Shown here: positions 16,214-59,326 of the stretch, in pieces
Position numbering within the stretch: position 1 is the stretch's first letter
Layout: the number at the start of each line of letters is the position of its first letter
NCBI GenBank assembly: GCA_039654915.1
Contig: CM077595.1
Location: forward strand, 92,359,501-92,423,500
Direction: 5' to 3'
Origin: Aquilaria yunnanensis
Taxonomy: Eukaryota; Streptophyta; Magnoliopsida; Malvales; Thymelaeaceae
DNA length: 64,000 nucleotides
Program-made: the position numbers and the translations under genes
The notes under the pieces: model-generated
Seen by the model: the letters and a program-made list of their open reading frames with translations, nothing else
Database searches by the model: none
Told to the model about the DNA's origin: nothing

Positions 16214-16576
16214 TAGTCACTAGTAGTCAAGTTCTCTAACGATCTGGATCCAACTGACCAAGGTCCATTTGGCAGTGAATCAAGATTTGCGACCCGGCCC
16301 GAGATTCAAAATCTGTTTTTCTTTTTTTCTTGTTTTCATTTTATAAGAACAATTTTTTATTGTGAATGTTGACACCCAATTTCGTCCGGCTTAAAAATAA
16401 AAAAAAATTAATTAATTAAATTAAAAATTAAAACTAAAAAAAAAAAAAATTATTGAATTACTTAATTAATTGATTACTTAATTAAAAAATAATAATAGTA
16501 ATAATGGCAATATTATTTTAGGGGCATTCTTTTTTAGTTTGTATGTTAGAAAAAAAGGGGGGGGAAGAAGAAGAAA

Positions 16577-16607
<31 letters not shown>

Positions 16608-17456
16608 TAAATCTAAATTAATTAAAATTAAAAATTATTAATTAATTAATTAATTAAAAATAAAAAGAAGAAAAAAACAAAAAAATAATAATAAAAAATG
16701 GGGAGGGTGGCCGACAGAGGCTCCCCCTCCCCTTATCCCTTATCTTCTCTTGCTTTTTTTTTTAATCGGGCTCTCCTCCCTTATCTCTTACGCTTTCTAA
16801 TCTCCTCTGGGCGTCTCCTCTCTCAGACAGCTAGCCTTCCCATCTCTCTCTACTCCCCGAAAACGCGAACTCTCTCTCTCTCCTTTGCTCTCCTCTCTCC
16901 TTCTCCCTCTCTGTTTCTCCTTCTCTCTCTCTCTTCTCGCGAACTCTCTCTCTCTCCTTCTCTCTCCTCTCTCCTTCTCCCTCTCTGTTTCTCCCCCTCT
17001 CTCTCTCACTGAGCCGGCTCCTCCTCCTGCCCTCGCCCTTCGTCAGCCGCGCGCCTCCACGCTCCTCTGCTCCAGCCGCTCGCCACCAGCCTCGCAGCCG
17101 CCTGTCTCCTCCCCGTCGTCTCCTGCCTTTGCTGCCGTCGCCGCCTCCTCCTCGCCCTCCACGCTGCGTCACCTATCCCTGCTGGCCGCGTCCCTCCGCC
17201 GTGATCCCCCGCGTTGCATCGCTCCAGCTCCCTCCGCCTTGCTCCCACCGTTTACGGCTCCACCGCGTCACCCACCAGGTGCCCATCCGCCGTGACATAG
17301 CCGTCCCTCCTCTACCGTGCTCGCGCCTCGCGCTCTGCCTAGCCCACTCTGCTGCCGCCCTCGCCGTTCACCTCCTCCCCTGATGCGCCCCTTTGCTCGC
17401 CCGACCGCTCCGCCACGCCCAGCCCAGCCTCCCCTGCTGCTGTGACGCGTTTCTCG

Positions 17457-17473
17457 TTTTGACCAAGTCAAAA
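17457..17473. promoter_or_regulatory. W-box palindrome in the LTR
   Basis: TTTTGAC-CAA-GTCAAAA is a perfect inverted repeat holding two divergent TTGAC cores, the WRKY-binding W-box core. It lies at the 3' edge of the GC-rich zone and recurs in the 3' LTR at 31596-31612. A role in stress-responsive LTR transcription is possible but inferred. Confidence 0.4.
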
Positions 17474-19159
17474 CTTTAAAAATTTTGGGTAAACCCTTGT
17501 TTACTCCTTGATCTTCCTTATTTTATCCATCCAAGTCACTAACGTTGTTTTCTTTGCAGATTAAGCATGGACAGCAAGTCTTTTTGTTTATATTTATTGT
17601 TTGTCCTTTCTTTGTTTATCCTTTGGTTTGTTTCGATCCTCTAATAATCGGAATTATTTTTATATGGTTTTAATGCCTGACCGGAATGCTATCAGCATTG
17701 ATATAAATAAAAAAAATATATATCTCTCTTTATAAACTTGAGTGATTTAGAATAATAAAATAAATAAATAATTATATTGCTGTAAAACATACATACTTGT
17801 GTAGTAAAATGGACCATCTACACGCCTACGCTGCTGTCCATGGACTGATATACGAGCTAGATTACAATGAGGTAAAAAGGTACAAGTGTCTCAACCCGTG
17901 AGTTTGCTGTTAGTTCTATTAATCCGTGGACTTTGAAATTGCACCATAAATTATGTGTTTTGTTGCTGGACAAACCATTTTTTTTATTTTTTATTTTTTT
18001 TATTTATGGTAATATCCCTATGAGTCTAGTTTACACAGAATTTTATATGATTTGATTTTAAGTTGTGGTTGAATTTATATGCATTTTTACTGAACTCCAT
18101 TGAATATGGAATAGGCACCAGTAGGCTTGTCTTTGTTGCTTGTTATAAAATCTATGATAAATTGTATGCTCTGTATCTAGGGATGTCATTTCTTGTGCTA
18201 ATAGCCATTTGTGTCTAGTCTATTTCTATTTTTACAAAAACGTAAATTGGATGTTTCTTTTATTTTATATAATCATTGAAATGGAGACTAGTTTGTCTCA
18301 CAATTGGTTCTTTAAGTTTAACAGGAGTCCTTGATTTTGAAATTTATAGTAATTTGTGTGTTGCATGTTTGAATTTGGTGAATTTAATAAATGTTCATAT
18401 GGATGTCTAGTGTCAGTACCAGTTCTTCACGGACTTCCATTTTCACTTATAAATGATTTTTTATCTAATTTCTGGAGCAAAGAGTACTTATCTGTGATTC
18501 TACCTGAAGTCTTATCTGATGGGCTAACTTGCATATTTTTTTTCTTTCTTCTTATAATTTATGTGCTGTCAACCACAAGTTGATATTGCTAAGTTACGTA
18601 TATATATAGTTTTATATAATGGTTTGGATAACTCGATGTTTTTTATATAGATTTGTGAATGAAGATAGGTCGATTTGAAATTCTGGGCAACAGATATGCA
18701 ACTGGAAGGTTTATCTCCCACTTCGGTTCTGATACTATGGTCTTACTGGTGTAATGTATATGTTGTAGATCTACTTATGCCTTTTGATATAGTCTGCTAA
18801 TTCTATTTTTCTGAATGCTTAGTATTGACACCCAATTAATCAGCTCCTTTTGGGTATAACTTCATCTTAGTTATCCAACTTTCTATTTTGTTCCTATGAG
18901 CCATTAACTATTTCTTTTTGGTTGGAGATCAGTCCCTGACAGCAGATTTATTTCTTTGTTCTCTTTTTGTTTTCTTTCTTTCTTTGATTATTTAACCATG
19001 TATTAGATTTAATCGTTAAATTCACTTAAAGATGTAATTTAGGATATTTATTTATTTATTTTCTAGAATAGTTAAATTTTAATTCTTGTAATGTATTTAA
19101 TCTGTATCAAATTATTGGTTAAACAATATTTAAATTTTTTTTGAAAATCCATCCTAAGA

Positions 19160-19480
19160 TGGATATTAAATTCCAAATTCGGGTGGTCCGATAGGATCTA
19201 TGGTTTGGAAATATAAAAATTTCAAGTAATAAAATTACAAAATCCATGTCCAGATGATTCGATTAGAATCCATGGCTTGGATATTAAAAATACAATAAAA
19301 TTAAATAACGAAATTAAAATTGCAAACTAGTAAATCATATCCATGTTCAAATGATTCGGTTAGAATCCATGGCTTGGATATTAAAATTCCGTGTCCAAAT
19401 GACTCGGCAGAGTCCATGGTTCGGAATCAAAATCTTCCGTGTCCAAATGACTCGGCAGAGTCCATGGTTCGGAAGTATAA
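19160..19480. repeat. Short diverged tandem repeats near the LTR 3' end
   Basis: Five copies of a motif of the type TGTCCAAATGA-TCGG--AGA(A)TCCATGG-T(C/T)GGA occur, the last two nearly identical (CCGTGTCCAAATGACTCGGC). The same array is in the 3' LTR at about 33300-33620. Confidence 0.75.
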
Positions 19481-19753
19481 AATTTCATACAAATTAATTA
19501 ATTTAAAAAAAATCCACATTTCGACTAATCCAGTTAAAATTTCTAATTTTGAAAATTAACTGAAAATTATTTAAAAGCAAAGTAAAACAAAATTAAAATC
19601 AACTAAGGTGCCAATTTTTGGGCGTTTTAACAAAGTTGTTTTAACGTAACCGTACTCCCGATCCCCGAACTCTCGCAGACCATATTTTAGGTATCCAATC
19701 GACCTAAGAAAAACAGATTGGTGGCGACTCCCGAAAACCCGCACGTTGCCACA

Positions 19754-20550
19754 GCTTGGCGACTCCACTGGGGACCCTGGTTAGTGAGTCAAGCCTAAAA
19801 GTTGATTTATTTTGTTATGTTTTGTTTATTTTTATGTGGATTTATATGTTATATTTACTTATTCTAAACATGCATAATGCATTTACAATATGAAGCTCTA
19901 TACCCGAGCTTCCTCGAAATCGAACACGTTCTTTCTAAGCGGAATTGGTGTTGTCGTCCTTGTGAGGCCATGGTCTCTAAGCCTTCACCGGTTTCAAAGT
20001 AGCAAAGTAGTGTATTGCCTCCTGAGACGGTTAGTCTCTGCATGGGCCCACGAAAAGCTACGACTCGAATTAATCCATTCCTTACATAAACCCTAGAGGG
20101 TAAGGAATCGGGCTGTCACTATAATTTAGTGACGGGATTCGGGAACTATCCCTTGCTTTTTTGATAAGCCACCTTATGCATATAGAACTCCCCACTTAAC
20201 CATAGAACTGACCATAGAATTTCTACCATTTTTACCAACACCATAAGCATATCCTTGTTATGCTGTGTTGTTACTCTACACTTTTCTTCGTATGGTTTTA
20301 ACTTGTTTATCCATAATACTTCATGAGTTGTTAATTACTATTTAACTTGTTAATAACCTTATTTTTCTTTTGTTATACTTCCGTTCTGTGCAATTATTCT
20401 TCATGCATCAAAACCATGCATCAAATTATGCTAACTTTTTGGTCTTTATAATGATAACTAGAAGTCTTGAAGTTTCACAATAGTTGATAATCAAGCTCAC
20501 TCATTGCATGCATCCATTGCATCAATCATATACATGTAAAATCTAATAAA
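19754..20550 (+). other. Primer-binding and leader region of the cargo retrotransposon
   Basis: The interior starts right after the LTR with GCTTGGCGACTCCACTGGGG (19754-19773), the expected place for a primer-binding site. I could not assign the tRNA with confidence. The rest is untranslated leader-like sequence with no supported gene. Confidence 0.6.
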
Positions 20551-20949
20551 ATGAATCTCACTTTAAAAAAAAGTAAAATTGGATCTCAACACCAATATCC
20601 AACTCGGCTCCAAACAAGACTAATGGCAGAACAAACCGAAGGACGTCTCATAGATATAGAGTCCAAGATAGAAAATATGGCTGGAGCAATTCCCTCCTCA
20701 TTACACCAAAAAATGAAATTCATTATTGACAGAAAGTTAATCACAGTTTTGGCTGAAGAAAGCATTCTGCTATCACCTATATCAACGGTAGCAAAGACCA
20801 AGTAGCCTCATCTTCCAAGTTGGAATGACCCAAATGCCAAATATGATTATCAAAAAGGTTCAATTGGACATTCAACTGAAAATTCTGTCATATTGAAACT
20901 CAAGGTCCAACAGTTGGTCGAGTCCAAGTTGCTAGGCCCGATGTGATTG
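20551..20949 (+). pseudogene. Gag relic of Ty3/gypsy type
   Basis: An 84-codon reading frame from 20551 (with TRLQTRLMAEQTEGRLIDIE) ends at a TAG at 20803-20805. The same frame continues past the stop as LPSWNDPNAKYDYQKG, GHSTEN and LKLKVQQLVESK, up to TGA near 20947. The GHSTEN-x4-LK-KVQ-L block matches the gag C-terminal region of plant gypsy elements, where Cys residues usually precede GH and follow TEN; here those positions are Tyr and Ser. So the metal site is lost and the frame is broken. Confidence 0.6.
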
Positions 20950-21149
20950 GTAATTGAAAGTGAAGATTTTGAGCTGGAATTACATTGATTTTGGAAGGGC
21001 TCCAAGTCAGATCTGACCTAACAGTCCACACACACTTTTGAATGACAGGGAATCCTTTGAATAAACTTGTATCTTTGAAAGCTTGCAAAAGTAATTTAAT
21101 AGTAAAAATCTCCTAGATTTAGTCCAGAATCTAGGGTGTAGTCTTTGTT

Positions 21150-21500
21150 AGATGGACACCTGCTATTCTTTTTCTGGTACCACAAAAAGATGTAATGCGT
21201 GCATTCTACTACTTTCCATTTTTACACTCTTTGCCATTATACTATCCATTATTGCTATCACACTTTACTTTTTGACAACCGGTAATTCTTTTTGTTCTCC
21301 AACAAAAAGATGTTATGTGTGCATTCTACCACTTTTTAATTCCATTATTACATCTACACATTCTACCAATTTTTACCAAAAATTCAATTACTACACCTAC
21401 ACATTCTACCACTTCTTACCAAAAATTCCGTTTTTATATCCATCTCTTACTCCTTTCCATTATACTATCCATTATTGCTATCACACTTTACTTTGAAAAT
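21150..21500. repeat. Imperfect direct repeats around AAAAAGATGT-ATG-GTGCATTCTAC
   Basis: Two main copies (about 21163 and 21283) of a segment of about 120 bp with shared CATTCTAC, CCATTATACTATCCATTATT and CTATCACACTTTACTTT blocks, plus shorter sub-repeats up to 21500. Open frames across it are low-complexity and not supported as genes. Confidence 0.6.
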
Positions 21501-21754
21501 GATACTACTCGTGGGTGAAAATAAAAAGTTAAGGGAGATTTAATAGTGGCGATCTTGAAAGTGCTGTCAAATCTAGTAAGAAGGATTTCATATGTTGCAC
21601 CCCAACTCTCAAAAAAAGAATTCATAGTGGTTATCAACATCCTTGCAAGAAGTCTGGGGTTAGCTTCCAAACAAGGTAGCTCTCATATTAAATGACTTCA
21701 GTGGCCTCCCAATTCTCACAAATGCTCAATACAAAAAAAAAAGATTCTCAGTTT

Positions 21755-22070
21755 TCCGCAACACAAATTCCAACAAAGGAAAGAAGTTCATCCCTTCCAT
21801 CAAAAAGCCAACAAGGGAAAATTTAAAACAAAAAAAAAAAAGAGAGACTGAGAGCAAACACAAGCAAGTAAGGCCACTTGAATCATCTCATTTCAAGAAG
21901 GCTATGATCTCGGTTCTCTGTAACAAAAACTCCGAAAAGGAAAAAGTTCATCCCTTCCATCAAAAAGCCAACAAGGGAAAATTCAAAACAAAAAAGAAAT
22001 GAGAACAAGCACGAGCAAGCAAGGCCACTTGAGTCATCTCACTTCAAGAAAGTTATCAAATATGTCATCA
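21755..22070. repeat. About 150-bp tandem duplication
   Basis: The block AAGTTCATCCCTTCCATCAA...AAGGGAAAATT...AAGGCCACTTGA-TCATCTCA-TTCAAGAA occurs at about 21784-21900 and again at about 21945-22050. It is followed by an A-rich low-complexity tract to about 22200. Confidence 0.75.
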
Positions 22071-22392
22071 CCATAGCTCACACAAAAAAAAAAGGAACAA
22101 AAAAAAACAAAACAAAAAAAAAAAAAAGAAAGGGAAACAAAAACAAAAACAAAAAAAAAAGAGAAAGGAAAAAAAGGGCTCAAACTAGAGCAAAAGAAAA
22201 AAAAAGAAAACAAGTGAGCTATGGATTCTAAACTGAAAACCTGCAAAGGCGGTCTAGAAGACAAAAGCAACTTTCAAGCCAAGCATACATAAAGACCACG
22301 ATAGTTGGGGGGCAACAGATGAGGTTTAACTTTCTGGAAAGAGTGGCAAGTTTGAGGTCATCACTATTGAGTTTTTCATCATAATCAAATTT

Positions 22393-23230
22393 GCTCACGA
22401 GTAGTATTAAAAGACCATTCTTTCAAACCACTTAAACTTAACTTTCCTCAGACTTATCATCCTCATTCAGCTAAAAGACTATCATTGTGAAACATGTTTC
22501 TACCTTATTTAATACTGCTCACGAGTAGTATTAAAAGACCATTCTTTCAAACCACTTAAACTTAACTTTCCTCAGACTTATCATCCTCATTCAGCTAAAA
22601 GACTATCATTGTGAAACATGTTTCTACCTTATTTAATACTGCTCACGAGTAGTATTAAAAGACCATTCTTTCAAACCACTTAAACTTAACTTTCCTCAGA
22701 CTTATCATCCTCATTCAGCTAAAAGACTATCATTGTGAAACATGTTTCTACCTTATTTAATACTGCTCACGAGTAGTATTAAAAGACCATTCTTTCAAAC
22801 CACTTAAACTTAACTTTCCTCAAACTTATCATCCTCATTCAGCTAAAAGACTATCATTGTGAAACATGTTTCTACCTTATTTAATACTGCTCACGAGTAG
22901 TATTAAAAGACCATTCTTTCACACCACTTAAATTTAACTTTCCTCAGACCTAACATCCTCATTCAGTTAAAAGACTATCATTATGAATCATGTTTCTACC
23001 TTATTTAATACTGCTCACGAGTAGTATTAAAATACCCTTCTTTCACACCACTCAAACTTAACTTTACTTAGACCTAATATTTACCTCTTAATATTATTCT
23101 CATTCAGCTAAAAGACTGCCACAAAAAAAAAACATTCAAACTTAACTTTCCTCACACCTAACATTTACCTCTCGATATCATCCTCATTCAGCTAAAAGGC
23201 TATCCTTGTGAATCATGTTTATACCTTATT
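22393..23230. repeat. 124-bp tandem repeat array
   Basis: Units start with GCTCACGAGTAGTATTAAAA at 22393, 22517, 22641, 22765, 22889 and 23013, a constant 124-bp period. The first four copies are almost identical, later ones diverge, and the array fades out near 23230. The unit start includes the inverted pair TAATACTGCTC-ACGAGTAGTATTA (dyad around 22520). No coding function. Confidence 0.93.
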
Positions 23231-24234
23231 GCCTTGCGCAGTTTATGTCTTCGAGTTGGAAAAGGAAGAATGGCAGGATATTTTAATTAAAAACAAAGAC
23301 CGTAAATTACTTTGTCAAGCTTTGAAAATTGATGAAAGTTTTTCTTTAAGGCCAAACCATTATTCATTAATGTATGTAGACTTAAAAGTAAGGAGATAGC
23401 TTGAGTCTTTCTTTAATAAGATGTGGTTCTTGTAAGAGAAATTTACGATCAAGTGCCATCACAAAGGTCTAGAAATCCTCAACCTTCTGTTAAATCAAAG
23501 GCGAGATGATATCTCTTTCCACATAAACACCATAATCAAGGGGGCAAAGTAGTCTCTACTAAGCGCAAGAAAAGTATTGCCAAGAAAGAAGCTCAATAGA
23601 CAAGGGGGCAAGTCTTATGGATCAGAACCTGAGTCTAAGGAAGAGCAATCATTCGGACTGTAACATGGGGGTAAACAAGTGTCGGCACGGCCAGAAGAAA
23701 ATGGGCAAAGCAGACATTGAAAGTAAAGCCTTTGATGGTATCAAATCCATGACAATGGATGAGTACTCGAAAGAGATATAAATTATGAGGCGGGCCAACT
23801 TTAAAGAAATTGAGGCCAAAATTCAAGAACAAGTCAAAGAAAGGGGATTTTGAAAAGAGTTGGGCTTTTGAGGCAGTGAACAAAAGCTGGAAAGCATAAA
23901 GAGATTCAATGATAGTCCAAGAAGGCAATTATAAAGAGGATCCAGTAAAGCAAAGATATGAAGAACTAGATCAATCCAAAAAAAATAAAAAATAAAAAAA
24001 TAAATATAAATAAAAATAAAAATAAAAAAAAAAAAAAGAGAACCATCAATTACACATGCTTTGCATTCATGCATTTCACATCATGCATGCATGATTTTTA
24101 CATGATAGGAATCAAATGGGAAACACATCCACCGCACCGTTACAGCAGTATAAGCTGAGATCTCAATAATATCAGCTCTTACCAATCTATCACTGGATAC
24201 ACAGCTAATATGCGGGACCAACCTGCATCAGGAA
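23231..24234. other. Retrotransposon interior without a supported gene
   Basis: AT- and A-rich sequence with scattered GGGGGCAA stretches like those near polypurine tracts (23538, 23601). The short frame 23208-23399 (63 codons) has no recognisable domain. An A/T-only tract lies at about 23978-24037. Confidence 0.5.
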
Positions 24235-24610
24235 TTCAAGGATAAAGTAGACAATATTGTCAAAAGCTTGGCTACCGATTCAATAATCGAGGCTACACCT
24301 AGAAGGATAGGATTGACGCCAGCTAGTAGTATCCAAGATAAGAGATAGCTATAGCCAAGGATAAGGCAGATATCAAAAAAAATATAAAGTAGACAATATT
24401 GTCAAAAGCCTGGCAATTGATTCAATAATCGAGGCTACACCTGGTAGGACAGGATTGATGCCAGCTTAGCAGCATCCAAGATAAGAGATAGCTGTGGTCA
24501 AAGATAAGGCAGACATCAAGAAATATTGTCGTTGAAACTTTGTCAAAAGCGGACAAAAGATTCAATAATCAAGGACTCGATCGACGTCAGCTGGGTGGAA
24601 TATCAAAGAT
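24235..24610. repeat. About 150-bp direct repeats, three diverging copies
   Basis: The block AAAGTAGACAATATTGTCAA...GATTCAATAATCGAGGCTACACCT...CCAAGATAAGAGATAGCT occurs at about 24244 and 24386, with a third, more diverged copy from about 24520 to 24610. It lies immediately upstream of the first CRP-like gene. Confidence 0.75.
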
Positions 24611-24759
24611 AAGAAATATCATTCACATCAAAATAAAGTAGGATCCACTTTTCCGGTTAAACGGCGGATACGGTACTCCGTGACTCTCAAGTCGGTTCTC
24701 TCAGTTGCCCATAATAACTGATTCCTTCACCCCTTCTTTCTTTTACTTCCTCCTAGAAA

Positions 24760-25308
24760 ATGGATCCTACTTTTTTCGCCTTGCGAAAGTATTTCCCTTC
24801 TCTCCCAATGAACATCCTCAAAAAGATCTACCAAGTTCGCTGTGAACGATTAAGAGTTCTGATGCACAAAGGAATCCCTGAAGATGTGCGGTGGTTAATC
24901 GAAGCCAAGGTTCGTCTAGCAGGTGAAATCCCAGAGGCATTTGTGTCTCACATGCCTGGTATAGGCAAAAGCTCTTATGCCAAAAAGCGAAGAGCGAAAA
25001 GGTTACAAGTCTGCCATAAATGTGGACGGTGGACTTGTAATACTAAATGTCGTTCTTTAGGGATGATCTCTGATAATCGAGAAGATAAAATACGATTCAT
25101 TAAGAATGGCCTGAGTAAAGACTCGTTGGATGATATCCAATTGACTCTTGAGACGCATTCTTGTGGATCCGTGCAACGTGAACTTCTCGATTTATGGAGC
25201 ATTTTTCATGAAGAACGAGAACGATACAGTCCCGGGAATCTGACGTTAAACGACCCTATTTGTCAGCTTGTAAGAAAACTGGATGGGAAGCAAATCCTCG
25301 ACTCATAG
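24760..25308 (+). CDS. CRP1: basic zinc-finger protein resembling carlavirus-type nucleic-acid-binding proteins
   Basis: An intact intronless 182-aa frame, ATG to TAG, inside the LTR retrotransposon. Order: N-terminal helix-like part (ALRKYFPSLPMNILKKIY), a middle part with IEAKVRLAGEIPEAF, then a strongly basic stretch KKRRAKR (75-81) running into a Cys cluster C85-x2-C88-x4-C93-x3-C97, followed by a charged C-terminal half. The S-YA-RRAK-L--C-KC layout resembles the small cysteine-rich nucleic-acid-binding proteins of carlaviruses and related flexiviruses, some of which are known silencing suppressors or nuclear regulators. The second Cys pair is spaced more tightly than I would expect for them. 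Homology is inferred by eye. It could instead be another small treble-clef-like zinc protein. The start is supported by the co-aligned ATG of CRP2. Confidence 0.6.
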   Translation: MDPTFFALRKYFPSLPMNILKKIYQVRCERLRVLMHKGIPEDVRWLIEAKVRLAGEIPEAFVSHMPGIGKSSYAKKRRAKRLQVCHKCGRWTCNTKCRSLGMISDNREDKIRFIKNGLSKDSLDDIQLTLETHSCGSVQRELLDLWSIFHEERERYSPGNLTLNDPICQLVRKLDGKQILDS

Positions 25309-25359
25309 AAGCCATTAATCCCGTTACTGGACGTAAAACCAGTGGAAGATGTGAGCCAC

Positions 25360-25597
25360 AGTCACAATTACTGTACATACAGTTTGTTATATTTGGAAAA
25401 GTTTGCATTTTCTTTTGACAGATGTACACGCTCCCCTAAGTGTAATCGACACGTTATCCCTTTTCATCACTATAAATGCGTGTTCTTCCTTCTGATTAAG
25501 CAGCGGATAAGATACCCCGTGACTTCTAAATTCAGTTATTCCAGTCTCCTACGATAACTGATTCATTTCCCTCTTCTCTCAAATTCTTCTCTCATTA
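25360..25597 (+). promoter_or_regulatory. Putative internal promoter and leader of CRP2
   Basis: A CAGTCACAATTACTGTACAT element (25360-25379) is followed by a TATA box TATAAAT (25471-25477) in the context CATCACTATAAATGCG. A start about 30 bp further down would give a leader of roughly 95 nt to the CRP2 ATG. The element recurs in front of LOG. No comparable TATA box was found in front of CRP1. Confidence 0.5.
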
Positions 25598-26146
25598 ATG
25601 GATTCTACTCTTTCTGCACTGCGAAAATACTTTCCTTCCCTTCCAATAAAAGTCCTTAAAAAGATCTACCTGGCTAGATGTGAAAGAATCAGAGTTTTTA
25701 CACGCAAAGGCATTCCCGATAATGTGCAGTGGATAATTGAAGCTAAGGTCCGTTTGGCGGGTGAAGTTCCAGATGCATTTATGCCCCGCATGCCCGGTTT
25801 AGGTAAAAGCCGTTATGCCAAAAGGCGAAGAGCAAAGAGACTAGGCGTGTGTTATAAATGTGGGCGATGGAATTGTATTACTAAATGTCGCTCTTTAGGA
25901 TACATCTCCATAAATCGTGAAGATAAAAGAAAATTCATTAAGAATGGCCTGCGTAAGGAATCTCTGGAAGATATTCGAGAGGTTCTTGAAGCGCATTCTT
26001 GCGGAATAGTGCAATTTGAGGTTGTTGGATTATGGATAATTTTCCAAAAAGAACAAGATCGTTACAGTCTTGGGAATCTGACTCTAAACGACCCTGTTTG
26101 CCAGTTTGTGAGAAAGCTAGATGAGATGCAAATCACCGATTCATAG
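25598..26146 (+). CDS. CRP2: second copy of the basic zinc-finger protein
   Basis: An intact 182-aa frame, ATG to TAG, aligning with CRP1 end to end without gaps. I count 55 differences, so about 70% identity. All four Cys of the cluster (85, 88, 93, 97), the basic stretch (75-81, KRRRAKR) and blocks such as IEAKVRLAGE, KCGRW, TKCRSLG and NLTLNDP are kept; many changes are conservative (I/V, L/I, D/E, K/R). Neither copy has a stop or frameshift despite this divergence, which suggests both stayed under protein-level selection through many retrotransposition rounds. The same family reservations apply as for CRP1. Confidence 0.62.
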   Translation: MDSTLSALRKYFPSLPIKVLKKIYLARCERIRVFTRKGIPDNVQWIIEAKVRLAGEVPDAFMPRMPGLGKSRYAKRRRAKRLGVCYKCGRWNCITKCRSLGYISINREDKRKFIKNGLRKESLEDIREVLEAHSCGIVQFEVVGLWIIFQKEQDRYSLGNLTLNDPVCQFVRKLDEMQITDS

Positions 26147-26198
26147 AAAGCATTAAAGCCATTACTGGACGCAAAGCCATTGGAAGACGAGGATCAAA

Positions 26199-26565
26199 GT
26201 CACGATTACTGTACATGCTAGCTGTCGCTTTTGAAATTATCCTCCCAATAATGTACCAACTCCTGACATGAGATACAGTTATGATTACTGTATATAGCTG
26301 CCACTTTTTAAAATTTTCCTTCTCTTCCAACAATCACGTACCTACTCCTGACGTAAGTTACAGTAGTGACTACTGTACATGCTAGCAGCTATTTTGAAAA
26401 TTTTCCTCCTCTTTTAATGATAGTGTACCCATACCTGACCAAAGTCATACTCGTGACTACTGTGAATAGCTGGCAATAATGTATCCATTCTTGAAAATAA
26501 AATTATTGCCTTATCTCTTCATCTCTATAAATATATCCTCTTTTCTCACAAGGGTAAGGATAGGA
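26199..26565 (+). promoter_or_regulatory. Repeated enhancer-like modules and TATA box upstream of LOG
   Basis: Four imperfect direct repeats of about 80-87 bp, each starting near GA(T/C)TACTGTA (26204, 26283, 26368, 26455). Three of the units end in a CCTGAC-(T)(A/G)AG-like block; one of these contains TGACGTAAG (26349-26357), the as-1/TGA-factor core known from plant and caulimovirus promoters. A TATA box TATAAATA is at 26526-26533. Transcription from it would start about 26556-26560 and leave only a very short leader before the ATG at 26566. Confidence 0.55.
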
Positions 26566-27195
26566 ATGGAGAAAACCCCAACTCGTAAATCCCGAAGTAT
26601 TTGTGTATTTTCTGGGGCTTTTCCTGGAAAAGATGAAGAGTATTTAAAAGCAGCCAACCATTTGGGAAGAGTATTAGCTGAGCGAAAAATACATTTAGTT
26701 TATGGAGGAGGTAATGTCGGATTAATGGGAGCTGTAGCATCAGCAGCATCTTTAGGAGGAAGCCAGGTTCTGGGTATTATCCCTGCATCTCTGAAATCGG
26801 TTTCTGGGGGCACAATTGGAGAAGAGCTAGTGGTTAAAAATCTGCAAGAGCGTTTGTTACAAATGCTTTTTAATGCTGATGCTTTTATCGCTCTACCAGG
26901 TGGCTTTGGCACATTAGGAGAAGTCTTCCAAATCGCTTCCATGGCCCAACTTAATTTGCATCAAAAACCCATTGGGCTGTTAAATGTTAACTATTTCTTC
27001 GCAGGTCTATTATCTTTTATGAATCGTGCTGTGAAGCAGAAGTTTATCCCTGAGGTGGCACGACGAATCATAATATCCGCAACAACTGCTGAAGAATTGC
27101 TAGATAAAATGGAAGCTTTTGTTCCTGAACCAGATCCAGCAATGATCCAAATAGACTGGACACGACAGTCTTTCCCGACCAGTTCACTCCCATAA
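26566..27195 (+). CDS. LOG-type cytokinin riboside 5'-monophosphate phosphoribohydrolase, retrotransposon cargo
   Basis: An intact intronless 209-aa frame (ATG 26566; an upstream in-frame ATG at 26479 would add 29 residues but lies before the TATA box). LOG enzymes release active cytokinin bases from their riboside monophosphates. Family marks: ICVFSGAFPGK (12-22), YGGGNVGLMG (46-55), LPGGFGTLGE (110-119) matching PGGxGTxxE with Glu119, and Arg96 in the place of the catalytic Arg just before NADAFIALPGG. The usual MHxRK before it is replaced by LQERL. The middle segment (residues 72-95) differs from ordinary plant LOGs as I know them. Plant LOG genes normally have several introns, so an intronless copy within an LTR element fits capture of a processed transcript or a non-plant source. 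Confidence 0.85.
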   Translation: MEKTPTRKSRSICVFSGAFPGKDEEYLKAANHLGRVLAERKIHLVYGGGNVGLMGAVASAASLGGSQVLGIIPASLKSVSGGTIGEELVVKNLQERLLQMLFNADAFIALPGGFGTLGEVFQIASMAQLNLHQKPIGLLNVNYFFAGLLSFMNRAVKQKFIPEVARRIIISATTAEELLDKMEAFVPEPDPAMIQIDWTRQSFPTSSLP

Positions 27196-27713
27196 TTGTC
27201 CTTTACCCGGCCTGTTGAAGCATTGTGGAAGAAGAAGCGATCTGATCCGTTTTTCTTGTCCTTTAGTTTTATTATCAGCATTTTCTTTCGCGTTTCAGTT
27301 TTTCCTTTCAGGGAATTTCTTTTTTTTTTATAATATAGTTTCGTCCAGGCTGATATTAAAACCATAGGACAATGCCTTTAGGTTGGAATGGCTGAGTAAA
27401 GAGTAATTTTTGTTACTCTTGAGACGCATCCTATTAGGTCTACTAGGCATAACATTTTGGGGTAGTTAAGCTTTAACCTTATTCGGATGACATATCTCAC
27501 AAGGGAATCTATATTTACTGAAGAAAATATTAGATGAACCTTGAATATTGATTCCAAACATCCGTTCCATTTACATAATTTGTCAGTGTTATTGTCATCA
27601 TCAAGATTCACTCATCTTATCGAAGTTTAAATTTTTGCACTCACCTATTATGAAAATTCACACTTTCGAAGAAAATTATTTCAATTTCAATTGCTTTCAT
27701 ATAAATTTCGCTC
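27196..27713. other. LOG 3' flank
   Basis: AT-rich sequence after the LOG stop with no supported gene. The hairpin theme of the following arrays begins at its right edge. Confidence 0.6.
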
Positions 27714-28646
27714 GAGGTCCTAAGGAAAGCTCCTTAGCCTCAAAATCAATTTTCATCATCGAGGTTTTAAGGATGAAACCTTTGCCTCGAAAATAATCAA
27801 TTTTCATCAATCCGGGGTTTTAAGGATGGAACCTTTGCCTCGAGATCAATCAATCAATCCGAGGTTTTAAGGATAGAACCTTTGCCTCGAGATCAATCAA
27901 TCAATCCGAGGTTTTAAGGATAGAACCTTTGCCTCGAGATCAATCAATCAATCCGGGGTTTTAAGGATGGAACCTTTGCCTCGAGATCAATCAATCAATC
28001 CGAGGTTTTAAGGATAGAACCTTTGCCTCGAGATCAATCAATCAATCCGGGGTTTTAAGGATGGAACCTTTGCCTCGAGATCAATTATCAATCCGAGGTT
28101 TTAAGGATGGAACCTTTGCCTCGACATCAATCAATCAATTCGAGGTTTTAAGGATGGAACCTTTGCCTCGAGATCAATCAATCAATCCGAGGTTTTAAGG
28201 ATAGAACCTTTGCCTCGAGATCAATCAATCAATCCGGGGTTTTAAGGATGGAACCTTTGCCTCGAGATCAATCAATCAATCCGAGGTTTTAAGGATAGAA
28301 CCTTTGCCTCGAGATCAATCAATCAATCCGGGGTTTTAAGGATGGAACCTTTGCCTCGAGATCAACCAATCAATTCGAGGTTTTAAGGATGGAACCTTTG
28401 CCTCGAGATCAATCAATCAATCCGAGGTTTTAAGGATAGAACCTTTGCCTCGAGATCAATTATCAATCCGAGGTTTTAAGGATGGAACCTTTGCCTCGAC
28501 ATCAATCAATCAATCCAAGGTTTTAAGGATGGAACCTTTGCCTCGACATCAATCAATCAATTCGAGGTTTTAAGGATGGAACCTTTGCCTCGAAATCAAT
28601 CAATCAATCCGAGGTTTTAAGGATGGAACCTTTGCCTCGAGAACAA
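27714..28646. repeat. Hairpin tandem array B: 47-bp units, 19 copies
   Basis: Opened by an inverted repeat GAGGTCCTAAGGA-AAGC-TCCTTAGCCTC (27714-27741). There follow 19 occurrences of GGTTTTAAGGAT(A/G)GAACCTT (first at about 27763), mostly at a 47-bp period with the spacer GATCAATCAATCAATCC. Within a unit CGAGG pairs with CCTCG and AAGG with CCTT. Units with CCGAGG/ATAG and CCGGGG/ATGG often alternate, a higher-order 94-bp repeat. Confidence 0.93.
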
Positions 28647-28649
28647 TCA

Positions 28650-29145
28650 ATCATCAATTTTTCTTAAACGATAAGAGAGTTCTTATCGTAGAGGTTCTAA
28701 GGTAGGGCCCTTAACCTCAAACTTGCAACGATAGGAGAGTTCCTATCGTTGAGGTTCTAAGGAGAGTTCCTTAAACCTCAAACAATCAATCATCAATTTT
28801 TCTTCAAATGATAAGAGAGTTCTTATCGCAGAGGTTCTAAGGTAGGGCCCTTAACCTCAAACTTGCAACGATAGGAGAGTTCCTATCGTCAAGGTTCTAA
28901 GGAGAGTTCCTTAAACCTCAAACAATCAATCATCAATTTTTCTTAAACGATAAGAGAGTTCTTATCGTAGAGGTTCTAAGGTAGGGCCCTTAACCTCAAA
29001 CTTTCAATGATAGGAGAGTTCCTATCGTCGAGGTTCTAAGGAGAGTTCCTTAAACCTCAAACAATCAATCATCAATTTTTCTTAAACGATAAGAGAATTT
29101 TTATCGCAGAGGTTCTAAGGTATGGCCCTTAACCTCAAACTTTCA
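28650..29145. repeat. Hairpin tandem array C: about 140-bp units, four copies
   Basis: Each unit holds four inverted repeats in a row: ACGATAAGA-GAGT-TCTTATCGT, GAGGTTCTAAGG..CCTTAACCTC, CGATAGGA-GAGT-TCCTATCG and GAGGTTCTAAGGA..TCCTTAAACCTC. They are separated by AAC-AATCAATCATCAATTTTT spacers. Units start near 28665, 28804, 28946 and 29085. The fourth unit is transitional to array D. Confidence 0.9.
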
Positions 29146-30404
29146 ACGATAGAACCTTTCCTATCGTTAGAGGTTCTAAGGACCTTTCCTTAAACCTCAA
29201 ACAAACAATCAATCATTCAGTCCATCTTACAACGATAGAACCTTTCCTATCGTTAGAGGTTCTAAGGACCTTTCCTTAAACCTCAAACAAACAATCAATC
29301 ATTCAGTCCATCTTACAACGATAGAACCTTTCCTATCGTTAGAGGTTCTAAGGACCTTTCCTTAAACCTCAAACAAACAATCAATCATTCAGTCCATCTT
29401 ACAACGATAGAACCTTTCCTATCGTTAGAGGTTCTAAGGACCTTTCCTTAAACCTCAAACAAACAATCAATCATTCAGTCCATCTTACAACGATAGAACC
29501 TTTCCTATCGTTAGAGGTTCTAAGGACCTTTCCTTAACCTCAAAATCATCAATCAATCATTCAGTCCATCTTACAACGATAGAACCTTTCCTATCGTTAG
29601 AGGTTCTAAGGACCTTTCTTTAACCTCAAAATCATCAATCAATCATTCAGTCCATCTTACAACGATAGAACCTTTCCTATCGTTAGAGGTTCTAAGGACC
29701 TTTCCTTAACCTCAAACAAACAATCAATCATTCAGTCCATCTTACAACGATAGAACCTTTCCTATCGTTAGAGGTTCTAAGGACCTTTCCTTAAACCTCA
29801 AACAAACAATCAATCATTCAGTCCATCTTACAACGATAGAACCTTTCCTATCGTTAGAGGTTCTAAGGACCTTTCCTTAAACCTCAAACAAACAATCAAT
29901 CATTCAGTCCATCTTACAACGATAGAACCTTTCCTATCGTTAGAGGTTCTAAGGACCTTTCCTCAAACCTCAAACAAACAATCAATCATTCAGTCCATCT
30001 TACAACGATAGAACCTTTCCTATCGTTAGAGGTTCTAAGGACCTTTCCTTAAACCCCAAACAAACAATTAATCATTCAGTCCATCTTACAACGATAGAAC
30101 ATTTCCTATCGTTAGAGGTTCTAAGGACCTTTTCTTAACCTCAAACAAACAATCAATCATTCAGTCCATCTTACAACGATAGAACCTTTCCTATCGTTAG
30201 AGGTTCTAAGGACCTTTCCTTAAACCTCAAACAAACAATCAATCATTCAGTCCATCTTACAACGATAGAACCTTTCCTATCGTTAGAGGTTCTAAGGACC
30301 TTTCCTTAACCTCAAATAAACAAACAATCATTCAGTCCATCTTACAACGATAGAACCTTTCCTATCGTTAGAGGTTCTAAGGACCTTTCCTTAAACCTCA
30401 GAGT
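29146..30404. repeat. Hairpin tandem array D: 86-bp units, about 15 copies
   Basis: Units of 86 bp (starts at 29229, 29315 and so on to about 30344, a few shortened by 1-2 bp). Each has two stems, AACGATAG..CTATCGTT and GAGGTTCTAAGG..CCTTAAACCTC, both with loops containing ACCTTT, then the spacer CAAACAATCAATCATTCAGTCCATCTT. Copies are nearly identical. The array ends about 90 bp before the polypurine tract. Confidence 0.93.
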
Positions 30405-30492
30405 TTAGACGGCGAGAAGGTTTTCAATGCCTAGCTAAGCTGGACGAAATTTGGTAACTAACTTTGCATACATCATGTCCCATGAAGCATGC

Positions 30493-30505
30493 AAAGGGGG
30501 GCAGC
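30493..30505 (+). other. Polypurine tract of the cargo retrotransposon
   Basis: AAAGGGGGGCAG directly precedes the 3' LTR start (TGTTGACACCC at 30506), the site of plus-strand DNA priming. Confidence 0.85.
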
Positions 30506-30715
30506 TGTTGACACCCAATTTCGTCCGGCTTAAAAATAAAAAAAAATTAATTAATTAAATTAAAAATTAAAACTAAAAAAAAAAAAAATTATTGAATTAC
30601 TTAATTAATTGATTACTTAATTAAAAAATAATAATAGTAATAATGGCAATATTATTTTAGGGGCATTCTTTTTTAGTTTGTATGTTAGAAAAAAAGGGGG
30701 GGGAAGAAGAAGAAA

Positions 30716-30746
<31 letters not shown>

Positions 30747-33700
30747 TAAATCTAAATTAATTAAAATTAAAAATTATTAATTAATTAATTAATTAAAAAT
30801 AAAAAGAAGAAAAAAACAAAAAAATAATAATAAAAAATGGGGAGGGTGGCCGACAGAGGCTCCCCCTCCCCTTATCCCTTATCTTCTCTTGCTTTTTTTT
30901 TTAATCGGGCTCTCCTCCCTTATCTCTTACGCTTTCTAATCTCCTCTGGGCGTCTCCTCTCTCAGACAGCTAGCCTTCCCATCTCTCTCTACTCCCCGAA
31001 AACGCGAACTCTCTCTCTCTCCTTTGCTCTCCTCTCTCCTTCTCCCTCTCTGTTTCTCCTTCTCTCTCTCTCTTCTCGCGAACTCTCTCTCTCTCCTTCT
31101 CTCTCCTCTCTCCTTCTCCCTCTCTGTTTCTCCCCCTCTCTCTCTCACTGAGCCGGCTCCTCCTCCTGCCCTCGCCCTTCGTCAGCCGCGCGCCTCCACG
31201 CTCCTCTGCTCCAGCCGCTCGCCACCAGCCTCGCAGCCGCCTGTCTCCTCCCCGTCGTCTCCTGCCTTTGCTGCCGTCGCCGCCTCCTCCTCGCCCTCCA
31301 CGCTGCGTCACCTATCCCTGCTGGCCGCGTCCCTCCGCCGTGATCCCCCGCGTTGCATCGCTCCAGCTCCCTCCGCCTTGCTCCCACCGTTTACGGCTCC
31401 ACCGCGTCACCCACCAGGTGCCCATCCGCCGTGACATAGCCGTCCCTCCTCTACCGTGCTCGCGCCTCGCGCTCTGCCTAGCCCACTCTGCTGCCGCCCT
31501 CGCCGTTCACCTCCTCCCCTGATGCGCCCCTTTGCTCGCCCGACCGCTCCGCCACGCCCAGCCCAGCCTCCCCTGCTGCTGTGACGCGTTTCTCGTTTTG
31601 ACCAAGTCAAAACTTTAAAAATTTTGGGTAAACCCTTGTTTACTCCTTGATCTTCCTTATTTTATCCATCCAAGTCACTAACGTTGTTTTCTTTGCAGAT
31701 TAAGCATGGACAGCAAGTCTTTTTGTTTATATTTATTGTTTGTCCTTTCTTTGTTTATCCTTTGGTTTGTTTCGATCCTCTAATAATCGGAATTATTTTT
31801 ATATGGTTTTAATGCCTGACCGGAATGCTATCAGCATTGATATAAATAAAAAAAATATATATCTCTCTTTATAAACTTGAGTGATTTAGAATAATAAAAT
31901 AAATAAATAATTATATTGCTGTAAAACATACATACTTGTGTAGTAAAATGGACCATCTACACGCCTACGCTGCTGTCCATGGACTGATATACGAGCTAGA
32001 TTACAATGAGGTAAAAAGGTACAAGTGTCTCAACCCGTGAGTTTGCTGTTAGTTCTATTAATCCGTGGACTTTGAAATTGCACCATAAATTATGTGTTTT
32101 GTTGCTGGACAAACCATTTTTTTTATTTTTTATTTTTTTTATTTATGGTAATATCCCTATGAGTCTAGTTTACACAGAATTTTATATGATTTGATTTTAA
32201 GTTGTGGTTGAATTTATATGCATTTTTACTGAACTCCATTGAATATGGAATAGGCACCAGTAGGCTTGTCTTTGTTGCTTGTTATAAAATCTATGATAAA
32301 TTGTATGCTCTGTATCTAGGGATGTCATTTCTTGTGCTAATAGCCATTTGTGTCTAGTCTATTTCTATTTTTACAAAAACGTAAATTGGATGTTTCTTTT
32401 ATTTTATATAATCATTGAAATGGAGACTAGTTTGTCTCACAATTGGTTCTTTAAGTTTAACAGGAGTCCTTGATTTTGAAATTTATAGTAATTTGTGTGT
32501 TGCATGTTTGAATTTGGTGAATTTAATAAATGTTCATATGGATGTCTAGTGTCAGTACCAGTTCTTCACGGACTTCCATTTTCACTTATAAATGATTTTT
32601 TATCTAATTTCTGGAGCAAAGAGTACTTATCTGTGATTCTACCTGAAGTCTTATCTGATGGGCTAACTTGCATATTTTTTTTCTTTCTTCTTATAATTTA
32701 TGTGCTGTCAACCACAAGTTGATATTGCTAAGTTACGTATATATATAGTTTTATATAATGGTTTGGATAACTCGATGTTTTTTATATAGATTTGTGAATG
32801 AAGATAGGTCGATTTGAAATTCTGGGCAACAGATATGCAACTGGAAGGTTTATCTCCCACTTCGGTTCTGATACTATGGTCTTACTGGTGTAATGTATAT
32901 GTTGTAGATCTACTTATGCCTTTTGATATAGTCTGCTAATTCTATTTTTCTGAATGCTTAGTATTGACACCCAATTAATCAGCTCCTTTTGGGTATAACT
33001 TCATCTTAGTTATCCAACTTTCTATTTTGTTCCTATGAGCCATTAACTATTTCTTTTTGGTTGGAGATCAGTCCCTGACAGCAGATTTATTTCTTTGTTC
33101 TCTTTTTGTTTTCTTTCTTTCTTTGATTATTTAACCATGTATTAGATTTAATCGTTAAATTCACTTAAAGATGTAATTTAGGATATTTATTTATTTATTT
33201 TCTAGAATAGTTAAATTTTAATTCTTGTAATGTATTTAATCTGTATCAAATTATTGGTTAAACAATATTTAAATTTTTTTTGAAAATCCATCCTAAGATG
33301 GATATTAAATTCCAAATTCGGGTGGTCCGATAGGATCTATGGTTTGGAAATATAAAAATTTCAAGTAATAAAATTACAAAATCCATGTCCAGATGATTCG
33401 ATTAGAATCCATGGCTTGGATATTAAAAATACAATAAAATTAAATAACGAAATTAAAATTGCAAACTAGTAAATCATATCCATGTTCAAATGATTCGGTT
33501 AGAATCCATGGCTTGGATATTAAAATTCCGTGTCCAAATGACTCGGCAGAGTCCATGGTTCGGAATCAAAATCTTCCGTGTCCAAATGACTCGGCAGAGT
33601 CCATGGTTCGGAAGTATAAAATTTCATACAAATTAATTAATTTAAAAAAAATCCACATTTCGACTAATCCAGTTAAAATTTCTAATTTTGAAAATTAACT

Positions 33701-33892
33701 GAAAATTATTTAAAAGCAAAGTAAAACAAAATTAAAATCAACTAAGGTGCCAATTTTTGGGCGTTTTAACAAAGTTGTTTTAACGTAACCGTACTCCCGA
33801 TCCCCGAACTCTCGCAGACCATATTTTAGGTATCCAATCGACCTAAGAAAAACAGATTGGTGGCGACTCCCGAAAACCCGCACGTTGCCACA
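30506..33892 (+). repeat. 3' LTR of the cargo retrotransposon
   Basis: A direct copy of 16367-19753 with an offset of 14,139 throughout. The stretches I compared and all the parallel reading frames are identical. It is followed by the target duplication GTGAA (33893-33897). Confidence 0.95.
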
Positions 33893-34778
33893 GTGAAATT
33901 TACAAAAAGCCTCCCTATATTTGCCCCAACCTACACTTGCCCCCATCCATAGCAAAACTTACAGTTTTTCCTATCAAACTGTCACATTTGTAAGCTTGTT
34001 TGATATGCTAGTGGACCAAATGATCTAATAGACCAACAATATTTTCAATTTCTACAAATTAACCATAATATTCATCTGATGCCACCTACAATCCATTTTC
34101 CCTAAATGTATGACATATTTCTAATAATTTTTTCATTCCTTAATAATTTTCATATTTATAAATTTACTATTAATTTGTAAATCTATAATATAATTTCATG
34201 TTTATAAACTAAGTTTAATATTAATTTTACTTTTTAATATCTTATTCAATTTTAATTAATTCAAATAGAGAAGTCTCATTTTTCAGGACAAATATATTTT
34301 AACTAATTTGATGCTCTATTATCACTAATTTGATAGATTTCTTACCTAAACATCTTTGATATGAACTAAACAATGATATAGCGTTGAGTTGGTTGTATGA
34401 GTGAAAGTATATGAGGTTTTAATTGGTAGTTGGTGACAAATAAGGGAAGTACAATGTGAACTAATCAACTTAATTAGTGATACTAGTAATTGTAACAAAT
34501 TTTGAAAAAAAAAAAACAAAAAATCTTGCTTCCATAAATTTGTCTTCCACTATATGGATTTATTATTAGTTTTATTCAATATTATTCCAATTAATCAATC
34601 AATAATCAATCTTGCTTTCATATATTTATCTTCCATTATGTGGATTTATTATTAGTTTTATTTAATATTATTCCAATTAATCAATCAATAATCAATCTTG
34701 CTTCCATATATTTACCTTCCACTGCATGGATTTATTATTAGTTTTATTCAATATTATTCTAATTAATCAATCAATAAT

Positions 34779-52990: not shown

Positions 52991-52995
52991 CAAAT

Positions 52996-58840: not shown

Positions 58841-58859
58841 GAGGAAAAAGGTTCCTTCT

Positions 58860-59326
58860 ATTAATCCTATGCCTACAAGCAAGGATTACTGTACCTCAAG
58901 GACCGAATCTATGTGCCTAAAAGACCAAGTTAGCTGCAAGATACATAGGTCCTTATGAGATCTTGGACAGAGTTGGCAAGGTAGCATACGGGTTAGCTCT
59001 ATTGCCAAGCATGTCAAGTGTTCATAATGTTTTTCACATCAGTGTGCTTAAGAAATGTCTATTGGACACAAAGCATGCTATTGTAGTGGAAGACATACAG
59101 TTGGAACCCAACTTGACATATGAAGAGAGACCTATATCTATCTTAGCCAAGGATACCAGAAGGTTAAGAAACAAACTTATTCCTATGGTTAACGTTCAGT
59201 GGTCACACCACTCTGAAAGAGAAGCAACCTGGGAAACTGAAAAAGACCTTATGGAAAGGTATCCTGAAGAATACCCGAAGCTAAAGACTATTTTGGAGGA
59301 CCAAAAATTTTTAAGGGGGGGAGGAT
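58860..59326 (+). pseudogene. Gypsy integrase C-terminal remnant after deletion
   Basis: [16 protein letters not shown], the start of the integrase zinc region, is followed at once by KLAARYIGPYEILDRVGKVA and HNVFHISVLKKCLLDTKHAI. The end has EREATWETEKDLMERYPEEY. The C-terminal part is thus joined directly to the N-terminal edge, and the catalytic core with its D,D-35-E triad is absent. The polypurine tract AAGGGGGGAGGAT ends the segment. Confidence 0.82.

Follow-up and report, generated by a model that had tools for sequence, protein, structure and literature searches.

Results

We find that the LTR retrotransposon at positions 16367–33892 (17.5 kb, forward strand) of the window, the whole 64,000-nucleotide stretch of Aquilaria yunnanensis DNA analysed here, is best explained as a young, non-autonomous copy of the Ogre/Tat kind that keeps an accessory module of virus-like CRP genes and a LOG gene, a reading that we consider probable when taken as a whole. 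Its anatomical part we regard as very likely.

Architecture of the window element

The element has paired LTRs of 3,387 bp that begin with TG, end with CA and show 0 differences, together with a target-site duplication, a primer-binding site and a polypurine tract (Table 1), the hallmarks of an LTR retrotransposon. The initial annotation had reported exact LTR boundaries, the GTGAA duplication, the polypurine tract and difference-free LTRs, all of which are confirmed, and its view that this is a genuine LTR element, recent and non-autonomous, that carries coding genes is borne out. The interior opens with the primer-binding region, GCTTGGCGACTCCACTGGGGA, the start of which, GCTTGGCG, also stands after the 5' LTR in relatives; a search of the window for a tRNA gene that could supply the primer found none. 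The final ~370 bp of the 5' LTR match the LTR ends of sampled relatives at 85–96%. ORF and Pfam analysis finds no protease, RT or integrase domain in the window element, and three open frames (CRP, CRP and LOG), in agreement with the same annotation. The element has no gag-pol coding capacity, as is the case for a LARD, but LARDs generally have a non-coding interior, and here the interior holds three open frames under selection.

Table 1. Features of the window element, with positions in the window
Feature	Position	Strand	Evidence
Target-site duplication GTGAA, 5' copy	16362..16366	.	direct sequence comparison
5' LTR, 3,387 bp	16367..19753	+	identical to 30506–33892
Primer-binding region (TGGCGACTCC..., 3 bp past LTR)	19754..19776	+	position and sequence
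Vestige, gag codons 1–38 fused to G-patch-ORF codons 5–38	about 20569..20775	+	tblastn with L041 proteins
CRP1, 182 aa, Viral_NABP/Carla_C4	24760..25308	+	ORF, Pfam
TATA box, 127 bp ahead of CRP2 ATG	25471..25476	+	
CRP2, 182 aa, in-frame CRP2/CRP3 recombinant	25598..26146	+	ORF, Pfam, sequence comparison
TATA box, 40 bp ahead of LOG ATG at 26566	26526..26531	+	
LOG, 209 aa (ORF from 26479)	26566..27195	+	ORF, Pfam Lysine_decarbox, structure model
Tandem repeats with unit lengths of roughly 47, 139 and 86 bp, ahead of 3' LTR	27665..30429	+	
Polypurine tract AAAGGGGGGCAGC	30493..30505	+	closes interior, adjoins 3' LTR
3' LTR, 3,387 bp	30506..33892	+	identical to 5' LTR
Target-site duplication GTGAA, 3' copy	33893..33897	.	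direct sequence comparison

Pol-bearing relatives and a gag/G-patch vestige

Ten relatives from the 842-Mb genome that holds the window were sampled, all found via CRP1, so that family members lacking the cassette could not appear among them. In two of the ten (L041 and L047) this cassette is preceded by pol. L041 encodes DUF7745, gag, G-patch, RT, two RNase H domains and integrase, followed by CRP1, CRP2, CRP3 and LOG, and the usual cassette in the family is likewise three CRPs and LOG, between pol and the 3' LTR on the same strand. Both relatives show RT, dual RNase H and then integrase, the Ogre/Tat order, which the window copy lacks. The window element is a member of this high-copy Ty3/gypsy family, which is assigned to the Ogre/Tat kind by its domain order. 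The initial annotation advised looking for an autonomous partner with the same LTR ends and primer-binding site. Sampled relatives share both features with the window copy, but no fully intact autonomous copy occurs among the ten: L047 lacks its 5' part and its pol frame is broken, and the CRP2 of L041 is frameshifted. LTR pairs are 98.1–99.96% identical in seven of the ten sampled elements.

The window element contains a gag/G-patch vestige inside an 84-aa ORF (20551–20805), which was overlooked in the initial annotation. The same junction is present in L031, L039 and L045, and has 404 exact matches in the 842-Mb genome and 0 in the reversed control; in a cross-match of junction positions with LOG and CRP1 places, nine pairs were picked by eye among the matches listed (100 of 404). 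Judged by this sequence, the window copy arose by deletion, through which it lost gag-pol, and two further pol-less structures, besides the window type, retain the cassette. An assembly chimera at one site is rejected, since the cassette recurs at many places in the genome and one junction 404 times.

The CRP genes

Both window CRPs match Viral_NABP and Carla_C4 above the curated cut-off, as do most family CRPs at E 0.01 (59/63 and 57/63, respectively), and by profile match we assign the CRPs to the flexivirus type. They are basic, and a zinc-finger-like cysteine cluster adjoins a KKRRAKR stretch. A fold search with a low-confidence CRP model (pLDDT 61.5) gives no match at E 0.001; 17 of the 19 top rows are named plant virus proteins, which we take to belong to the alpha- and betaflexivirus families, and the other two are nameless. 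A search of plasmid proteins with CRP1 returned no match, and scans of viral contigs with CRP1 and with the CRP alignment returned no confirmed relative. The number of CRPs per element runs from one to three, perhaps four, with at least one upstream of LOG in all 26 loci that cover that side; the L009 and L010 stretches cover LOG only. CRP1 is without a TATA box in three of four copies, and the TATA boxes close upstream of the second CRP and of LOG suggest that these two genes may form separate transcription units.

The LOG gene

LOG carries the features of a LOG phosphoribohydrolase at the level of domain, model and motif: a Pfam match to Lysine_decarbox (PF03641), a structure model that lies 1.6 Å from plant LOG 2a33, and PGGFGTLGE, which fits PGGxGTxxE, presumably the LOG signature. 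R96 and E119 are invariant in 16/16 aligned LOGs. The in-frame ATG at 26566 is the more likely start over the first ATG at 26479, because the TATA box ~40 bp before 26566 lies downstream of that first ATG. The LOG tree divides the pol-less copies between two clades, and one of these also contains pol-bearing copies.

Copy number, integrity and selection

CRP1 and LOG searches place the cassette genes at thousands of candidate places in the genome. There are dozens of LOG copies in Reevesia and CRP homologues in named rosids and asterids, and a CRP follows the integrase of another pol type in the L051 contig and an integrase in a Rhamnella gene model.

LOG is open in all ten sampled elements, eight of which are pol-less, while gag contains stops in four of the five gag-only elements. 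dN/dS is about 0.26–0.35 for LOG and 0.30–0.47 for CRP2/3, computed after 47 of 131 places that were partial, gapped or clipped had been left out, and for the window copy compared with L023, within the pol-less lineage, the pooled ratio is 0.28 (Fisher p 1.2e-6); nucleotides 1–363 of CRP2 show 6 nonsynonymous and 1 synonymous change in this pair. Of the 84 cassette genes that are full-length and ungapped, 11 contain a stop, frameshifts occur in the cassette genes of L003, L024, L026 and L049, and a stop within the domain is seen in 5 of 150 LOG places; the lists of LOG and CRP1 places favour intact copies because they are ranked by score. LOG and the CRPs are under purifying selection. The initial annotation had said that its reading would fail if the genes were absent or broken everywhere; most copies examined hold them and dN/dS is below 1. 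Accidental or broken cargo is rejected on the grounds that the cassette is recurrent, its LOG frame is open in every sampled element and dN/dS is low.

Discussion

These findings can be assembled into a model in which pol-bearing members carry the cassette, usually three CRPs with LOG, downstream of pol and ahead of the 3' LTR, whereas the window lineage lost pol and most of gag, as marked by a single junction with 404 exact copies. The window copy also became one CRP short through in-frame CRP2/CRP3 recombination, and is presumably moved by the gag-pol of relatives with a common leader, primer-binding region and LTR ends. Like the CRPs of flexiviruses, those of the element might bind nucleic acid and suppress silencing and/or activate transcription; LOG might release active cytokinin, so that cells keep dividing and are permissive for the element. 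We put forward this functional part, silencing suppression or transcription control by the CRPs and cytokinin activation by LOG, tentatively and by analogy: Chrysanthemum virus B p12 is described, in the available text of the source, as both a transcription activator and a silencing suppressor (PMC7588395). More speculative still is the view that the cassette is a portable means of host manipulation such as an RNA virus or gall-forming microbe might carry, combining zinc-finger proteins shared with flexiviruses, which would dampen RNA silencing or alter transcription, with a cytokinin enzyme. On this view it has moved from one retroelement lineage to another (Ogre/Tat and a second pol type) among eudicots, and is kept by selection even without gag-pol.

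Other explanations were weighed against this one. On a passenger reading, which is unlikely though worth serious consideration, the cassette has a function in pol-bearing members alone and is intact in pol-less copies because these are young and are refreshed by recombination with pol-bearing relatives; the near-identical LTR pairs leave little time for decay, and both the mixed LOG clade and the recombinant window CRP2 indicate that exchange between copies happens. However, LOG is open in every pol-less element sampled where gag has mostly acquired stops, the low pooled ratio between the window and L023 points the same way (recombination could import this signal), and several deletion structures have independently kept the cassette, though sampling was via CRP1. 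We think it improbable that the CRPs are structural or replicative helpers (an RNA chaperone, packaging or nucleocapsid-like role), with LOG in a separate metabolic role and silencing uninvolved. Such a role would suit basic proteins with a cysteine cluster beside KKRRAKR, the matching viral families are named nucleic-acid-binding, and repeated CRPs would fit dosage or RNA binding, but the constant pairing with LOG is left unexplained, and published tests of two viral CRPs, in the portions of the reports available, place them in silencing suppression or pathogenicity (PMC7588395, PMC12172455).

That the cassette genes are domesticated host genes that chance to lie in repeats is very improbable; purifying selection would be expected of such genes, but thousands of candidate places and dozens of Reevesia LOG copies are the pattern of element genes. 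We can give hardly any credence to the initial proposal, by which a single element of non-coding type took up three cargo genes that stand where gag-pol would be. The window copy, taken alone, has that look, but the idea is rejected because the cassette lies downstream of pol in relatives, the window keeps a gag/G-patch vestige, and a CRP also follows integrase in L051 and the Rhamnella gene model.

On our preferred reading, one mobile unit unites a protein family of flexivirus suppressors, a hormone-activating enzyme and an abundant family of plant elements. If true, a plant retrotransposon would manipulate host defence and development as viruses and gall-forming microbes do, and host manipulation would offer a testable reason for its amplification. 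The findings also speak for an exchange of genes, in either direction, between plant retroelements and RNA viruses. Among the gene models of plant annotations, some of those labelled LOG-like or 'viral nucleic acid binding' are probably retroelement genes.

Comparison with known systems

LARD and TR-GAG elements are non-autonomous LTR elements that lack RT and integrase and are presumably mobilised in trans; the window element shares this absence and differs by its selected coding cassette. Steinbauerova et al. 2011 reportedly described two Athila-like elements with similarity to LOGL4. In plants, a YgdH/LOG domain is published for Ty3/gypsy elements of Citrus sinensis, C. clementina and Populus trichocarpa (PMC9289625). 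These are alike in having a LOG-type domain in a gypsy LTR element, but the available part of that account mentions no viral-type CRP, pol-less lineage or selection test, all present here. The initial claim of an undescribed combination accordingly falls for LOG in gypsy elements and stands for CRP with LOG: our literature search found no CRP, alone or with LOG, in LTR elements.

As described in the accessible text on Ogre/Tat elements of the OTA superclade (PMC6317226), these resemble the window element in large size and tandem repeats before the 3' LTR, and their dual RNase H and extra ORFs recur in its pol-bearing relatives; the additional ORFs on record for them vary and for the most part have no known domain, whereas here they are CRPs and LOG, and the window copy, unlike them, is without gag-pol. 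Grande gene23 is also an additional gene that follows pol and precedes the 3' LTR, and it may have a promoter of its own, but it is antisense and of unknown family in the portion available (PMC7264820), whereas the cassette genes are sense, with known domains. VANC of the VANDAL DNA transposons, as far as the available excerpts go, is likewise encoded by a transposon and proposed to act against silencing (PMC5735166, PMC10398659), in an unrelated element class, an activity that the CRPs would share by analogy. Carlavirus, mandarivirus and other flexivirus CRPs, in the excerpts available (PMC7588395, PMC12172455), share the Viral_NABP/Carla_C4 profile and the basic stretch by the cysteine cluster, but are shorter and belong to an RNA virus, whereas the CRPs described here have 182 aa, reside in a DNA element and are paired with LOG.

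Structure of the window element

We find that the LTR retrotransposon described in the initial annotation is real: its two 3,387-bp LTRs are identical, LTR comparison places GTGAA on both sides, and ORF reading recovers CRP1 and CRP2 (virus-like zinc-finger genes) and LOG (a cytokinin-activating enzyme gene) in the interior, all on the plus strand. Pfam assigns Viral_NABP (PF05515) and Carla_C4 (PF01623) to each CRP above cut-off, and PF03641 to LOG; the LOG structure model (mean pLDDT 84.4) superimposes on Arabidopsis At2g37210 (2a33) with an rmsd of 1.5-1.6 and 49% identity. CRP2 is a recombinant, with blocks 1-4 (91 bp each) 98-100% identical to CRP2 of the LOG loci L011 and L020, and the last two 91-bp blocks 98-99% identical to CRP3 of L020 and L050, and this accounts for the window having only two CRPs. 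Between the CRPs and LOG lie short repeated modules, noted by eye, with TGAC-type motifs and CAGT...ACTG stretches; these repeats, also present in relatives, resemble those of promoters or enhancers. Elsewhere in the window, a second direct-repeat pair, 100% identical over the 300 bp compared and ~6.3 kb apart, encloses a retrotransposon-type pol frame and is probably another young LTR retrotransposon. The CRP-LOG element itself sits between the two sets of host-gene-like frames.

Features of the window
Feature	Position	Strand	Remarks
RNA-dependent RNA polymerase-like frames	26-580 and 3207-4058		host-gene-like, by eye
5' LTR	16367-19753	+	3,387 bp, identical to 3' LTR
Repeated modules	25309-26478		by eye
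3' LTR	30506-33892	+	3,387 bp, 0 differences from 5' LTR
PPR-like frame	39583-42298		host-gene-like, by eye
Second direct-repeat pair	52994-53293 and 59325-59624
Pol frame	57640-58920		between second repeat pair

Pol-bearing and shrunken relatives

The proposal that a three-gene cargo (CRP-CRP-LOG) had replaced gag-pol is not borne out: two of ten sampled elements, L041 and L047, carry the CRP-LOG cassette downstream of pol. The sample comprises ten plus-strand CRP1 places from 150 listed, each examined over 10 kb to either side; because it was found through CRP1, cassette-less lineages are invisible in it. L041 contains a DUF7745/PMD frame, gag (PF03732) and G-patch, along with a pol of 1,144 aa that combines RT, two RNase H domains and integrase, and then CRP1, CRP2, CRP3 and LOG; its CRP2 is frameshifted and its 5' LTR lies beyond the piece examined. 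L047 lacks the gag N-terminus and has a broken pol frame, and given these defects we stop short of calling either element a fully intact autonomous copy.

Differing gag/G-patch remnants in the other elements indicate that gag-pol was lost in at least three structures with the cassette retained. Gag codons 1-54 and 259-886 persist with G-patch codons 1-38 in L029 and L035, gag up to codon 640 persists in L033, L037 (from codon 55) and L043, and gag 1-38 is fused to G-patch codons 5-38 in L031, L039, L045 and the window. This last junction has 404 exact genome matches, versus 0 for a reversed control. LOG is open in all ten sampled elements; gag has stops in four of the five gag-only ones. Within L037, a nested minus-strand frame of 1,377 aa, copia-like by eye, runs from ~4138 downward.

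Long LTR pairs in seven of the ten elements are 98.1-99.96% identical (0 to 9 mismatches), some of these alignments ending at a piece edge, and target duplications flank L033 (GTTGC) and L039 (ATAAG). No long LTR pair was found within the 10 kb on each side of L037/38, L041/42 and L043/44. At L045/L046 the alignment overruns the LTR owing to a second copy behind it: the 3' LTR leads directly into a further leader of this family, so that the elements are arranged in tandem and share an LTR.

Abundance, selection and putative expression signals

In the 842-Mb, 345-contig assembly that holds the window, searches return 3,310 candidates for the LOG domain (150 scored, 145 without a stop in the domain), 8,550 for CRP1 (150 scored, all full length without a stop) and 3,821 for the 5' leader (40 scored). 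These totals are loose and the scored lists put the best first, but they indicate thousands of genome places and a ratio of CRP candidates to LOG candidates of roughly 2.6. At least one CRP match precedes LOG in all 26 loci, out of 28 fetched, that include the upstream side, and three CRP matches, some broken, are found in 16 of the 18 with longer upstream sequence (L011-L028; L013 has two, L022 one). Another CRP1 match in the search listing sits just past the fetched end of L028, which may thus have four CRPs.

Nei-Gojobori analysis of 84 full-length ungapped frames (47 of 131 places dropped) gives dN/dS of 0.26-0.35 for LOG across four dS bins (37 sequences), 0.30-0.47 for CRP2/3 (41 sequences) and, from six CRP1 sequences, 0.20 and 0.23 (two bins, seven pairs each) and 0.09 (a single pair). 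The ratio is 0.10 for LOG pooled over ten elements of known structure and 0.25-0.38 for L041 gag against six other gags; window CRP1 and CRP2 differ by dN 0.185 and dS 0.824.

A TATAWA motif lies 40-51 bp upstream of the LOG ATG in all 30 copies whose upstream sequence is long enough; for CRP2/3, all 40 copies have one no more than 150 bp from the ATG (28% and 19%, respectively, in shuffled sequence). These counts are not independent events because the copies are related; the motif precedes CRP1 in one of four copies. Its position points to separate transcription units.

Other plants and a second pol type

CRP homologues number 271 at E 0.01, and among the 120 listed are named proteins of Populus, Rhamnella, Xanthoceras and Orobanche. 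Of the 120 LOG homologues listed, dozens come from Reevesia and further ones from Diplodiscus, Paulownia, Populus, Parasponia and Xanthoceras. One Rhamnella gene model (P0108) has a CRP running into LOG, the LOG part confirmed by Pfam and the CRP part taken from the database's domain list, and another (P0078) fuses an integrase-like C-terminus with a CRP. CRP and LOG matches whose contigs agree in length (8,723 bp in one pair, 4,511 bp in another) are a hint that the two genes occur together in other places too.

On the public contig L051, an integrase frame is followed ~200 bp on by a CRP with 71% identity to CRP1. Over 111 aa that integrase shares 70% identity with the Rhamnella piece, but its identity to L041 is 32%, so CRPs stand behind at least two pol types, the second of which is probably Athila-like. 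The plant-type integrase and CRP (L051:1-3330) are filed under a 'Candidatus Nomurabacteria' MAG, likely plant contamination of a public bacterial genome.

Discussion

The observed anatomy, scale and selection describe a family larger and better conserved than the initial annotation supposed, and we read the cassette as a module of accessory genes, rather than a replacement cargo, that belongs to a large Ogre/Tat-like family and is retained in shrunken copies. The window copy would be mobilised by gag-pol from relatives, given that it inserted recently and has leader, primer-binding region and LTR ends in common with them. Judging from family membership, CRP may counter silencing or activate transcription, and LOG may raise active cytokinin.

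Under the main rival, the cassette is of importance to pol-bearing members alone, and recombination refreshes it in the others. Bearing on this, four pieces compared between the window and L023, of the pol-less lineage, show 28 nonsynonymous changes per 1,083 sites and 30 synonymous per 322 (pooled ratio 0.28, Fisher p 1.2e-6), although the CRP2 nt 1-363 piece runs in the opposite direction (six nonsynonymous to one synonymous); L023 CRP3 has a stop. Copies of this lineage fall in two clades of the LOG tree, and such recombination weakens the result for selection in pol-less copies.

Viral_NABP and Carla_C4 are matched by 59/63 and 57/63 CRPs at E 0.01. A CRP fold search with a low-confidence model gave no significant match; the top 19 comprise two unnamed proteins and 17 named alpha/betaflexivirus proteins. 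In a search of largely open-access literature we found no report of CRP genes, or of CRP with LOG, in LTR elements. A flexivirus replicase-like sequence is described in cucumber (Chiba et al. 2011, PMC3136472), with no CRP mentioned in the portion consulted. Among viral counterparts, Chrysanthemum virus B p12 is a transcription activator in the nucleus and a silencing suppressor in the cytoplasm (PMC7588395), and in Citrus mandarivirus the CRPs determine pathogenicity, one of them acting as a silencing suppressor (PMC12172455). Gypsy consensuses from Citrus sinensis, Citrus clementina and Populus trichocarpa carry YgdH/LOG domains (PMC9289625, which cites an earlier report).
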